Of a stretch of DNA of 64,000 nt, positions 12,398 to 56,928 are shown piece after piece. Numbering within the stretch: position 1 is the stretch's first letter; the number at the start of each line of letters is the position of its first letter. A model generated the notes under the pieces. The model worked only from the letters and a program-made list of their open reading frames with translations, had not been told where the DNA came from and did not search any database. The DNA lies in assembly GCA_025994075.1 (NCBI GenBank), contig JAMQGV010000044.1, positions 1-64,000 of the forward strand. The letters run 5' to 3'. This DNA is from Vicinamibacteria bacterium (GTDB lineage: Bacteria > Acidobacteriota > Vicinamibacteria > Fen-336). The position numbers were made by a program, and so were the translations under genes.

Positions 12398-13270
12398 ATG
12401 AGATCAGTCCGCTGGATCGCCGTGGCCGCCGTCGTCGCCAGCCTCGCCGCCCATCCCGCTGCCGCCGCGTCCGAGCCGCCGGCCGACCTGAAGGCGAAGG
12501 TCGAGCGCTTCGTCGTCGACCACTTCCGGCTGGCCCCGCCCGACAAGGCCGAGGTGCTCTCCGCGTGGACGGCCGAGCCGCCCGAGCAGTGGCGCTTCCA
12601 GGTCCGCGTCACCCGCGACGGCAAGGCCGAGACCGCGGTCTACGCGGTCACCGCGGACTTCAAGGTCTTCGCGCTGAGCCGCATGTACGCGTTCCGCGAC
12701 GTCCGCGCGGAGAACCGCGACAAGGTCGCCCTCGACGGCGCCCCCGTCCGCGGCGCCGCGAACGCGCCGGTCGCGATCGTCGCCTACTGCGACCTGCAGT
12801 GCCCGGACTGCGCGAACGCCATGGGCAAGCTGAAGAACGTGCTGCCCGCCTACGAGGGCCGCGCCAGGCTCGTCTTCAAGAACTTCCCGCTCAACCACAT
12901 CCACCCGTGGGCCGAAGCGGCGGCGATCGGCGCGCGCTGCGCGTACGAGCAGAAGCCGGAGGCCTTCTGGGCGCTGCACGACCACTTCTTCGAGAAGCAG
13001 GGCGAGGTCAACGCCCGCAACGTGCGCGAGGTGGTCGCGACGGTCGGCGCGAAGGCCGGGGCCGACCGCGCGAAGCTGCTGGCCTGCTTCGACGCCAGGG
13101 CGACGCTGCCGGTCGTCCAGCGCGACGTCTACGAGGCGGGCAAGCTCGGGGTGCGCGGCACGCCGACCTTCCTGATCGACGGCCGCTTCGTCTTCAGCGA
13201 GACGCTCACCGAGGAGCAGTTCAAGGCGTTGATCGACGAGGCTCTGGCAGCGCAGCCCGCCCGCCCGTAA
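12398..13270 (+). CDS. DsbA-family thioredoxin-fold protein
   Basis: 290 residues: signal peptide, an N-terminal domain of about 90 residues (DLKAKVERFVVDHFRLAPPD), then a DsbA-type thioredoxin fold. The active site is CDLQCPDC, with redox pair CPDC, and the cis-Pro loop is RGTPTF. The alpha-helical insertion with NFPLNHIHPWAEAAA is typical of DsbA/BdbD proteins. It should act in the periplasm as a disulfide oxidase or isomerase. Its likely re-oxidant, a DsbB-like protein, is encoded far away at 55291. Shine-Dalgarno CGAGGAG precedes the ATG. Confidence 0.9.
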   Translation: MRSVRWIAVAAVVASLAAHPAAAASEPPADLKAKVERFVVDHFRLAPPDKAEVLSAWTAEPPEQWRFQVRVTRDGKAETAVYAVTADFKVFALSRMYAFRDVRAENRDKVALDGAPVRGAANAPVAIVAYCDLQCPDCANAMGKLKNVLPAYEGRARLVFKNFPLNHIHPWAEAAAIGARCAYEQKPEAFWALHDHFFEKQGEVNARNVREVVATVGAKAGADRAKLLACFDARATLPVVQRDVYEAGKLGVRGTPTFLIDGRFVFSETLTEEQFKALIDEALAAQPARP

Positions 13271-52986: not shown

Positions 52987-53556
52987 CTACGCCTCGAGGG
53001 TGACCTCGACCGGCACGCCGTGGCTGACCACGTCGAACACCGGCGAGCGCTGCTGGGCGACGCGCACCAGCTCCTCGAGCGTCTCGCGCGGGGCGTCGGC
53101 CTCGATCCGGAACTTCACGCGGATGCGCTCGTAGCCGTTGCGCACCTCGTCCGAGAGGCCGAGCAGGCCGCGCACGTCGAGGTCGCCCTCGAAGGTCGAC
53201 TCGACCGCGTCGAGCGCGATGCCGCGGGCCGCCGCGTGCAGCACCATCGAGGTCGTCAGGCAGCCGGCCAGCGCGTGCAGCACGAACTCGACCGGGTTGG
53301 CGCCGCGGTTCTCGCCGAGCAGCACCGGCGGCTCGTCGTTGTCGAACACGAACGCGCTCGCGCGCGACGTGTCCTCCTGCCCCGCGCCGTAGAAGTCGCG
53401 GATCGTCGAGCGGTTGAGGCCGCCGCCGAGCCACTTGTTGCGGTTGCGGAACTGGAACCGGGCCAGGCCCGGCTGGGACCGGATCGCCTTCACGGTCGAG
53501 AAGATCTGCTCCACGCTCAGGCCGTTGCAGGTGGCCGCGGGGGTCGCCGTCGTCAT
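52987..53556 (-). CDS. OsmC-family protein
   Basis: 189 residues. OsmC/Ohr fold: [20 protein letters not shown], then [26 protein letters not shown] with the peroxidatic Cys99, and [20 protein letters not shown]. The resolving Cys of OsmC/Ohr, expected before 'PV' near residue 170, is Ser ([12 protein letters not shown]), so it may work through another thiol or bind rather than reduce a peroxide. Cytoplasmic. A sigma-54 promoter and two palindromes lie upstream, beside the gene for a sigma-54 activator. Shine-Dalgarno GAGGATG with ATG at 53556. Confidence 0.88.

Positions 53557-53734: not shown

Positions 53735-53747
<13 letters not shown>
53704..53747. promoter_or_regulatory. Enhancer-type palindromes for the sigma-54 activator
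   Basis: GCGCGAGATCTCGCGC (53713-53728) is a perfect 16-bp palindrome; CGAGATCTCG (53738-53747) is a second, 22 bases away centre to centre. A degenerate third repeat (CTCGCG/CGCGAG) spans 53704-53719. They lie about 110-145 bases upstream of the predicted osmC start site and overlap the end of the activator gene. Confidence 0.65.
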
Positions 53748-55261
<1,514 letters not shown>

Positions 55262-55290: not shown

Positions 55291-56757
55291 TCAGCGCGGG
55301 AAGGCGACGACCGCGCCGTCCTCCTGCAGCACCAGCCACGCGTCGTCGCGCAGGGCGAGGCCCACGGGCCGCGAGAGCCCGTCGAGACCGCGGGCGGCGA
55401 CGACCTCGCGGGTCGCGAGGTCGATCTCGAGCAGGGTGGAGAACGCCGCCGAGAGCGCGTGGAGCCGCCCGTCCGCGATCGCCAGGCCGGTCACGAAGTA
55501 CTCGTCGAGCGAGCGCGCTTCGCCGGCCAGGGCGAGCCCGGGGCCGAGGGCCGGGAGGAACTCCTCGGCGAGCGTCATGTCCGAGCGCTCGAAGCGCGAC
55601 ACCACCAGCCGCCGGTGCCGCGCGTTGGGCACGCTCGCCGTCAGCAGCGACGGCCGCGCGGGGTCGAAGGCGAGGGCGGCGACGTGGTTCATCCGCGCCC
55701 GCACCGTCGCGAAGCGGCCGCGCGCCCGCTCCTCGAAGCGCTCGCCGCCGGCCAGGAAGTGGCGCCAGTTCTTCGCCGCGTCCCCACGCTCGACCTCCGC
55801 GAGCGTGGCGAAGCTCTTGCTCTCGGTCAGCGCGACGAGCGTCGTCGCGTCGACCCAGGCGACGCCGACGAGGCCGCGGCCGAGGTCCACCGAGTAGCCG
55901 GGGTCGAGCCGCGCCGAGTGCTCGATGCGGGCCAGGTCGGCGTCGAGCACGGCCACCTGGTGGCGGCCGGTGACGACGGCGAAGCGGCCGCTCGCCGGGT
56001 CGCGGGCGAAGTCCGCCGGCGTGCCGTCGAGCCCCGCCGCGATCCGGGTCCGCGAGCCGGCCGCGACCCGCGCCAGGCCGCGCAGCGGGCCGCGAGCCGG
56101 GTCCGCGTCGAGGCCGTCGATCGAGGGCGAAGCGAACGCGTAGCGCCCGCGCAGCGAGATCGCGGCAGGCTCCCACTCCTCGAGCGACCAGATCCAGGTC
56201 TTCGGGTCGAACGAGAAGCGCACCGGGTCGCTCTGGCCCATGTACGGGGGCGGCCCGGTCGAGGTGAACGCCTGGGCGACGTTGCCCGCGACCGCGAACA
56301 GGAAGACGACGATCGCCAGGCGGCCGAGCGGCCCGGGGTCGCGCGGCTCGGCGGTGGCCGCGCCGTCGCGCATCGCCATCAGCAGCAGGCCGATCGCCAC
56401 GACGAAGACCCAGAAGATGAACGCGGACCAGGTGTAGGTGTGGGCGCCGAAGAACTCGCCGGCGAAACCCTGGCCGACGTCGCGCGCCCAGTGCAGCGCC
56501 GAGTGGCGCACGCCCATGTAGATGCCGTGTGCCGAGATCAGCAGCGCGAGGCCCACGTAGCGCGGGCGCGGGCCGAAGCGCAGGATGAAGGCGCAGCACA
56601 GCGCCACCAGCGTCATCGCCGTGCGCTGCTGCCAGCACAGCACGCAGGGCGACTCGCCGTGGGCGAAGCCGAGCCACCAGGCGGCGACCCCGATCGGAGC
56701 GATCGAGACGAGGAGCAGCAGCGCCGCGAGCAGGCGGTACAGGGGCTCGTTGCGCAC
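55291..56757 (-). CDS. DsbB-like membrane domain fused to a propeller-like domain
   Basis: 488 residues. Residues 1-190 hold five membrane helices with the DsbB/VKOR-type motif [10 protein letters not shown] in the first periplasmic loop. A second Cys pair expected in the later periplasmic loop is absent, so electron relay to a DsbA partner may be incomplete or use other residues. Residues 200-488 look like a periplasmic beta-propeller ([32 protein letters not shown]-like). I do not know this fusion. It follows a 55-residue membrane protein by three bases. GTG start at 56757. Confidence 0.75.
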
Positions 56758-56760
56758 GGG

Positions 56761-56928
56761 TCAGTAGTTGAAGGGCGGCAGCACGGACGTCCGCGAGCCG
56801 ACGAAGAAGAGGAACACGGTCAGCGCCGCGCAGAAGAGCAGCAGCCGGAAGGCCAGCGCCTCCTTGTCCGGCCGCCGCAGGACCAGCACGCCCGTCACGA
56901 AGATGAGGACGAAGTTGAGGAACTCCAT
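56761..56928 (-). CDS. Small membrane protein
   Basis: 55 residues with two membrane spans ([38 protein letters not shown]) and a C-terminal PPFNY. I do not recognise it. It ends three bases before the GTG of the DsbB-like gene, so the two are probably one operon. A longer in-frame start at 56967 is possible but less likely because it enters the sigma factor gene. Confidence 0.6.

Follow-up and report, generated by a model that had tools for sequence, protein, structure and literature searches.

A dba-dsbI gene pair from an Acidobacteriota genome encodes a DsbB-like membrane protein fused to a beta-propeller

The DsbI family of membrane proteins was reportedly described in 2005 by Raczko et al. 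Its members are related to DsbB of Escherichia coli, in which we take C41, C44, R48, and H91 to serve the chemistry with quinone and C104-C130 to be the shuttle pair in the second periplasmic loop. E. coli DsbB lacks a propeller; it has four transmembrane helices (TMs), and its second cysteine pair is in loop 2 (PMC4460558). (We cite papers by their PMC identifiers.) DsbI from Campylobacter jejuni has five TMs, a CXXC motif, and a C-terminal propeller (PMC4460558, PMC4152235; PMC3167755 also gives the TMs and the propeller). The second cysteine pair is absent from it (PMC4460558, PMC7089426), and HP0595 from Helicobacter pylori was assigned the same topology (PMC4460558). The dba and dsbI genes of C. 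jejuni are 11 bp apart in one operon and are strongly coupled in translation; when Dba is missing, DsbI is degraded in E. coli (PMC3167755). A DsbI cluster in some Gammaproteobacteria is implied by PMC4152235 (the legend of its Figure 1 and its section 5). Our literature searches for DsbI together with Acidobacteria or with Gemmatimonad- found no paper.

We analyzed a stretch of 64,000 nucleotides, which we will call the window, from an uncultured member of the Acidobacteriota of the Vicinamibacteria type. A preliminary description of this DNA reported a DsbB-like domain fused to a propeller-like domain and did not recognize the architecture. But this architecture is known: it is that of DsbI from C. 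jejuni and H. pylori (PMC4460558, PMC4152235). DsbI has been studied most in Campylobacter and Helicobacter, and here it is found in a different phylum. The protein is a five-TM membrane enzyme fused to a propeller, and we have hardly any doubt about its identity as DsbI or about its architecture. The preliminary description also overlooked the dba gene just upstream. The gene pair and the parts of DsbI are:

56761..56928, minus strand: dba gene, 55 amino acids, two hydrophobic stretches (NCBIfam NF050061)
55291..56757, minus strand: dsbI gene, 488 amino acids, GTG start (NCBIfam NF050065 and Pfam DsbB)
56257..56757, minus strand: membrane domain, residues 1-167, five predicted TM helices, DsbB-like (AlphaFold2, VIA-align, profile)
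56635..56646, minus strand: CVLC active-site pair C38-C41, predicted first periplasmic loop, invariant in 57/57 proteins
56428..56505, minus strand: second periplasmic loop (predicted), residues 85-110, with conserved H85, D93, G97, G104, H106, Y108, and W110 and no cysteine
56218..56256, minus strand: linker after TM5, residues 168-180, aligns with the ECGx(3)C...NP tail of DUF5993-linked relatives (see below)
55294..56085, minus strand: beta-propeller, residues 225-488, predicted periplasmic (VIA-align to solved propellers)

The gene is a single open frame from 56757 to 55291, without internal stops. Pfam's DsbB model matches residues 8-91 (43.6 bits, cut-off 22.1, E = 5.1e-11), which places the protein in the DsbB superfamily. 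Its best match is to NCBIfam's DsbI model (NF050065, DisulBndDsbICampy), with residues 6-476 aligned to positions 7-487 of 498 (276.4 bits, E = 3.6e-82). Since this score is under the curated cut-off of 800 bits, the protein is not an equivalog of Campylobacter DsbI by NCBI's rule. Nevertheless, it has the three features by which PMC4152235 defines DsbI, namely five TMs, a CXXC in a periplasmic loop, and a C-terminal propeller. As in the DsbI proteins discussed in PMC4460558, there is no second cysteine pair. Besides C38 and C41, the only cysteines are C54 and C55. Because these lie within the predicted second helix, and because residues 85-109 contain no cysteine, the second redox pair that classical DsbB carries in loop 2 is absent, as the preliminary description had stated.

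AlphaFold2, run on the whole protein with 46 sequences, gave a model with a mean pLDDT of 84.4 and a pTM of 0.78. The model has five long helices (residues 4-32, 39-61, 65-95, 108-128, and 142-167) and a beta part (229-487), and when the membrane half was predicted alone, five corresponding long helices were again obtained. When the membrane half was compared to known structures with VIA-align, entries for E. coli DsbB took the top three rows (Z = 9.5, 9.4, and 9.3) and an unrelated chain came next (Z = 7.8). Still, the support from structure is modest: another DsbB chain (2hi7_B) appeared among unrelated rows with Z = 7.2, the tool warns that Z below about 13 can reflect a common arrangement of helical bundles, and Foldseek found DsbB only weakly (E = 0.49, rank 2, beneath an unrelated receptor). 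A phmmer search with the single sequence reached DsbB from the PDB only at E = 6.1, while a profile of 47 membrane halves matched DsbB (2hi7) with E = 0.0012 across residues 12-89. In the profile alignment, C38, C41, and R45 face the PCVLC..ER motif of DsbB, and H85 faces a histidine; presumably, these four are the counterparts of C41, C44, R48, and H91. This puts the CVLC pair between helices 1 and 2, in the loop where the preliminary description had placed it, and by homology to DsbB, this loop would be periplasmic. Given the Pfam and profile evidence, we reject the idea that the membrane half is not DsbB-like. So DsbI shares with E. coli DsbB the PCVLC..(E/Q)R motif and the histidine, and DsbB entries are the best structural rows for its membrane half, but DsbI differs from DsbB by having five TMs and a propeller and by lacking the second cysteine pair.

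We also considered that the two halves might have been joined artificially by a frameshift. We reject this explanation because the full-length fusion is found in relatives: it is intact in genomes of the same genus (92% and 77% identity), and 56 of the 63 loci described below have a frame of at least 470 amino acids.

The best structural matches for the propeller are glutaminyl cyclases (2iwa and 3mbr, both with Z = 21.8 and with 214 and 212 residues aligned) and YjiK (3qqz, Z = 21.0), followed by the NHL group at Z = 16.5. We take the propellers of glutaminyl cyclase and YjiK to have five blades, and from these matches, the propeller of DsbI is predicted to be five-bladed as well. The best rows have just 11-19% identity. 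The predicted fold in common with glutaminyl cyclase does not imply cyclase activity, and Pfam found no cyclase family in the protein. The propeller half that was noticed in the preliminary description is real, but 264 of its residues (225-488) can be aligned to solved propellers, somewhat fewer than the 290 given there. Propellers are commonly binding platforms. In DsbI, four charged residues of the propeller (K314, R353, D393, and E399) are invariant across the 57 aligned proteins, which suggests a common binding or docking site. It is plausible, as the preliminary description proposed, that disulfide chemistry is tied to a putative binding surface on the propeller.

To collect other DsbI proteins, we scanned a collection of 84,980 species, each represented by one genome, with two peptide patterns derived from an alignment of nine relatives. 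Within the limits of these two patterns and of this one-genome-per-species collection, we found 63 loci, from Acidobacteriota, Gemmatimonadota, Shewanella, Ferrimonas, one record labeled as Marinobacter, Pasteurellaceae, Cardiobacteriaceae, and Campylobacteraceae. Among 60 relatives of the window's genome (itself included), eight have a DsbI-type match, one of which is cut by the end of a contig, and in another two, a short classical DsbB is the only match. An even sample of 297 genomes from the phylum (again including the window's own) contains 6 with DsbI and 4 with only classical DsbB. One metagenome-assembled genome (MAG) of Campylobacter has three DsbI genes, and their scores against NF050065 are 939 bits (over the cut-off), 297 bits, and 290 bits. 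The latter two are about as far from the model as is the window's protein, which, unlike the Campylobacter and Helicobacter proteins, comes from another phylum and scores 276 bits against the cut-off of 800.

For conservation, we compared 57 proteins, which are the window's DsbI and those from 56 of the loci (the 7 loci that lack a frame of at least 470 amino acids were left out). C38, C41, R45, H85, D93, G97, G104, H106, Y108, and W110 are invariant in all 57, and so are G168, P171, G174, P178, and R180 in the linker. The CXXC provides the sole conserved cysteines. No sequence has a cysteine within residues 85-109 or 167-225, and just 2 of the 57 have a cysteine anywhere in the propeller. The lack of a second pair is a trait of the family.

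The stop codon of dba lies 3 nt before the start of dsbI, as compared to a gap of 11 bp in C. jejuni (PMC3167755). Residues 1-54 of the window's Dba align to positions 1-54 of 55 in NCBIfam's model for Campylobacter Dba (NF050061; 50.3 bits, E = 1.6e-13). This score is under the cut-off of 90 bits, so Dba is not an equivalog of the Campylobacter protein, although nearly all of the profile is covered and the gene has the same place, directly upstream of dsbI. A dba-like open reading frame (ORF) is present upstream of dsbI at 62 of the 63 loci, from four phyla. Of the 62, 60 end no more than 62 nt from the start of dsbI or overlap it slightly, one lies at a distance of 205 nt, and one has an overlap of 70 nt; these distances rest on assumed starts for dsbI, and the start sites are uncertain. 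At the one locus without a dba-like ORF (L071), the N-terminal part of DsbI does not share a frame with the remainder. Two loci (L063 and L075) have short dba-like ORFs only. A dba-like ORF is also upstream at all eight DsbI loci found among the 60 relatives (one of them in the window), at L012-L014, and before all three copies in the Campylobacter MAG. Our dba-like profile was seeded with seven proteins, and because at least two of these (L023 and L024) recur among the 63 loci, we consider the NCBIfam match to be the independent support. Within about 3 kb of classical DsbB, we found no dba-like ORF at any of four loci from the same phylum (best E = 1.4). As a whole, the locus is probably best explained as a dba-dsbI operon whose DsbI is a quinone-linked thiol oxidoreductase of the inner membrane with a single CXXC.

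Other neighbors of dba-dsbI vary. (We judged the identities of Shewanella and Ferrimonas neighbors from one representative per cluster.) In a clade from Shewanella and Ferrimonas (L061, L062, L064, L065, L068, L070, L077, and L078), the gene pair is followed by an operon for a molybdoenzyme and preceded by a LysR-type regulator. The gamma subunit from this operon scores above the cut-off for formate dehydrogenase, while the alpha subunit lies between the models for DMSO reductase and formate dehydrogenase and is under both cut-offs. In Campylobacter, L072 has FdhD, TusA, and an AIRS-domain (SelD-like) gene nearby. A single gammaproteobacterial clade, and to some extent Campylobacter, shows linkage to a molybdoenzyme cluster. 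A conjugative plasmid from Salmonella (L012, CP074271.1, positions 554-2005) encodes a full-length DsbI with a dba-like ORF, adjoining pflB and acetate kinase. A record labeled as Marinobacter nauticus has two DsbI (L059 and L061) that are very close to those of a record labeled as Ferrimonas balearica (L046 and L062), which reflects either transfer or a mislabeled assembly. In Acidobacteriota and Gemmatimonadota, we found only small clusters of conserved neighbors, none of which is common to more than a few loci; the ORF caller used for this was crude and, at some loci, put even dsbI in the wrong place. Downstream of dsbI in the window are:

53738-55261, minus strand: GAF/sigma-54 activator
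52987-53556, minus strand: OsmC-family protein, 1.7 kb from dsbI

With tblastn, we found no homolog of the OsmC-family protein at the 63 loci, 48 of which extend at least 2.5 kb past dsbI, so we reject it as a part of the system. The sigma-54 activator has a partial homolog at one of the 63 loci (L034), 5.6 kb from dsbI.

No gene for a redox partner adjoins dsbI in the window. Other genes for thiol redox in the window or elsewhere in this genome are:

12398..13270, plus strand: DsbA-type thioredoxin, 290 amino acids, candidate periplasmic partner (Pfam Thioredoxin_4, E = 9.8e-32; DSBA, E = 2.6e-14), about 42 kb from dsbI
C28, about 29.9-31.2 kb, and C31, about 19.0-20.2 kb: two frames of 470 and 554 amino acids in the window's own genome, both matching VKOR and DsbA-type models

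The two frames probably encode fusion oxidases and could be the main oxidases of this bacterium. We did not find another DsbB in the genome, which is 85% complete, by searching with PF02600. Because the genome has the VKOR/DsbA frames and a separate DsbA-type thioredoxin, DsbI is probably auxiliary rather than the main oxidase.

Pfam's DUF5993 matched two of three dba-like proteins weakly and below the cut-off (E = 0.13 for the window's Dba and 0.02 for another). Among 274 genomes from the class of a Shewanella genome, 11 have a DUF5993 match above the cut-off. At all 11 loci, the small hydrophobic DUF5993 ORF lies directly upstream of a five-TM relative of DsbB that has no propeller, an extension that seems to be new. 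To find these relatives, we first searched beside DUF5993 with a profile of three classical DsbB proteins, which gave weak matches at 4 of the 11 loci (E = 0.003-0.006). A profile built from those four proteins found all 11, of which 7 are independent of it. These DsbB relatives have a CPLC motif, a second loop without cysteines, and a YTW-type motif in 11/11 (HxYTW in 9/11). They also have a further hydrophobic stretch like TM5, followed by a cysteine pair (ECGx(3)C), in 11/11. They resemble DsbI in the cysteine-free loop, the YTW-type motif, the TM5-like stretch, and the small upstream gene, but they are only about 180-200 amino acids, with a cysteine pair after TM5 where DsbI runs into its linker and propeller.

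In RefSeq, DUF5993 is paired with "disulfide bond formation protein B" on plasmids from Serratia, Pantoea, and Pandoraea, and a Vibrio record has two unannotated copies of the enzyme with a DUF5993-like small ORF that we saw by eye. (The loci with DUF5993 pairs are L093-L103; L104, L106, and L107; and L105.) In the Pantoea record (L106, NZ_CP017591.1), a gene for phytochelatin synthase comes after the pair. Copper shock induces a DUF5993 gene in Erwinia amylovora, according to a report that does not mention DsbB (PMC12542790). Together, the phytochelatin synthase neighbor and the copper-induced gene make a link to metals and thiols possible. In the window's phylum, DUF5993 gave weak matches, below the cut-off and inside longer frames, in 2 of 247 genomes.

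When compared as profiles with hhalign, the membrane half of DsbI and the DUF5993-linked proteins align over 154 columns (E = 1.5e-23), through TM5 and into the linker, with the tail cysteines facing T167 and Y172 of DsbI and the "NP" facing D177-P178. With classical DsbB, the alignment covers only 68 columns (E = 2.7e-8), and since just four sequences were available, the lower score is partly due to thin sampling. When we compared two of the 11 DUF5993-linked proteins to NCBIfam, the DsbI model beat any DsbB model (E = 3.7e-8 and 1.9e-16). In a tree of 75 membrane halves, from which the 7 loci without a frame of at least 470 amino acids were left out, classical DsbB, the DUF5993-linked proteins, and DsbI are separate (supports of 100/99, 94/94, and 94/94); the tree is midpoint-rooted with long branches and cannot show which two groups are sisters. 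As for the small proteins, hhalign of Dba to DUF5993 gave a probability of 15.8% and E = 0.0016 over 40 columns, and our Dba profile found the small ORF at 3 of the 11 DUF5993 loci, with E up to 0.1. Any relationship of Dba to DUF5993 is weak by sequence, and it is mainly gene order that argues for it.

From the computed identity, architecture, gene pair, and conservation, we infer a mechanism for DsbI that involves quinone, direct exchange, docking by the propeller, and net oxidation. We give this mechanism as a whole about an even chance of being correct. As in DsbB, electrons would pass between C38-C41 in the first periplasmic loop and a quinone of the membrane that is bound close to R45 and H85; it is the conservation of these residues that points to quinone-linked thiol oxidase activity. 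Because the shuttle pair of DsbB is absent from loop 2, a periplasmic partner or substrate with a thioredoxin fold would react directly with C38-C41. The propeller, which would lie in the periplasm after TM5, may dock the partner and give the specificity that the shuttle pair supplies in DsbB. Dba is predicted to be a small hairpin-like membrane protein, and it may act with the membrane domain of DsbI in synthesis or stability.

The direction of electron flow is uncertain. In H. pylori, HP0231 is partly more reduced without HpDsbI, although the effect is slight and motility is retained (PMC4597128), and in C. jejuni, AstA activity falls to 73% in the dsbI mutant and to 8% in the dsbB mutant (PMC4152235). 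Both results fit oxidation. On the other hand, the dsbI mutant of C. jejuni was the most sensitive to peroxide, and the authors proposed a separate reductive pathway (PMC7089426), which PMC12428200 also suggests. DsbI might therefore run in reverse, as a reductase driven by quinol or by a partner or as a component of peroxide defense, keeping a periplasmic thiol protein reduced. A single cysteine pair would suit such a one-step exchange, and C8J_1298, which is mainly in the reduced state, loses that state without dsbI (but also without dsbD, dsbB, or dsbA1; PMC7089426). The OsmC-family gene in the window might seem to point the same way, but it has no counterpart at the other loci (see above). 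Reversal is also disfavored by the alignment of R45 and H85 to those of DsbB, which is an oxidase, and by HP0231 becoming partly more reduced, rather than more oxidized, without HpDsbI. Overall, we consider a reductive role to be unlikely, if the most credible of the alternatives.

We also considered that a partner docked on the propeller might provide the second cysteine pair in trans. Electrons would then flow from a DsbA-like protein to this shuttle pair, to the CXXC, and on to quinone. The cysteine pair in the tail of the DUF5993-linked relatives lends some weight to this idea. However, Dba can be rejected as the carrier of the missing pair, as no alignment column has cysteine in more than 27 of the 62 dba-like proteins, and we found no other gene cluster at more than a few of the Acidobacteriota and Gemmatimonadota loci (as far as the crude ORF caller could tell). 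Supply in trans is accordingly improbable. It is even harder to believe that the protein has lost its redox function and has become a receptor or scaffold that acts via its propeller; the preliminary description had raised a loss of oxidase function. The absence of the second pair and the general role of propellers as binding platforms would fit, but the CXXC, R45, and H85 are invariant in 57/57 proteins from several phyla, which would not be expected of a redundant active site and which therefore makes loss of redox function unlikely. Nor does such a loss fit the reduced AstA activity of the C. jejuni mutant.

Returning to our preferred reading of DsbI as an oxidase with a single CXXC, the DUF5993-linked relatives suggest a possible former position for the cysteine pair that it lacks. 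We tentatively propose that Dba and DUF5993 form a single family of small membrane partners, characteristic of a distinct branch of the DsbB superfamily, that the second pair moved from loop 2 to a tail after TM5 in this branch, and that DsbI then lost the pair and gained the propeller in its place. We put this at somewhat below an even chance, having lowered our estimate because the tree of membrane halves cannot show which groups are sisters. If this is true, then the cysteines that DsbI lacks were lost by domain replacement, and the choice of partner depends on the propeller. Also, Dba or DUF5993 would serve the membrane half that is common to both groups, and not the propeller. The role of the propeller and the mode of action of DsbI are described as open questions in PMC4460558 and PMC7089426. 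Gene order links DUF5993, an unnamed Pfam family, to disulfide chemistry. The strict linkage of dba to dsbI across four phyla, and the propeller-less relative with its relocated cysteine pair, are worth following, and the dba-dsbI pairs from outside the Campylobacterota, together with the relative that has the tail pair, open the way to direct experiments.
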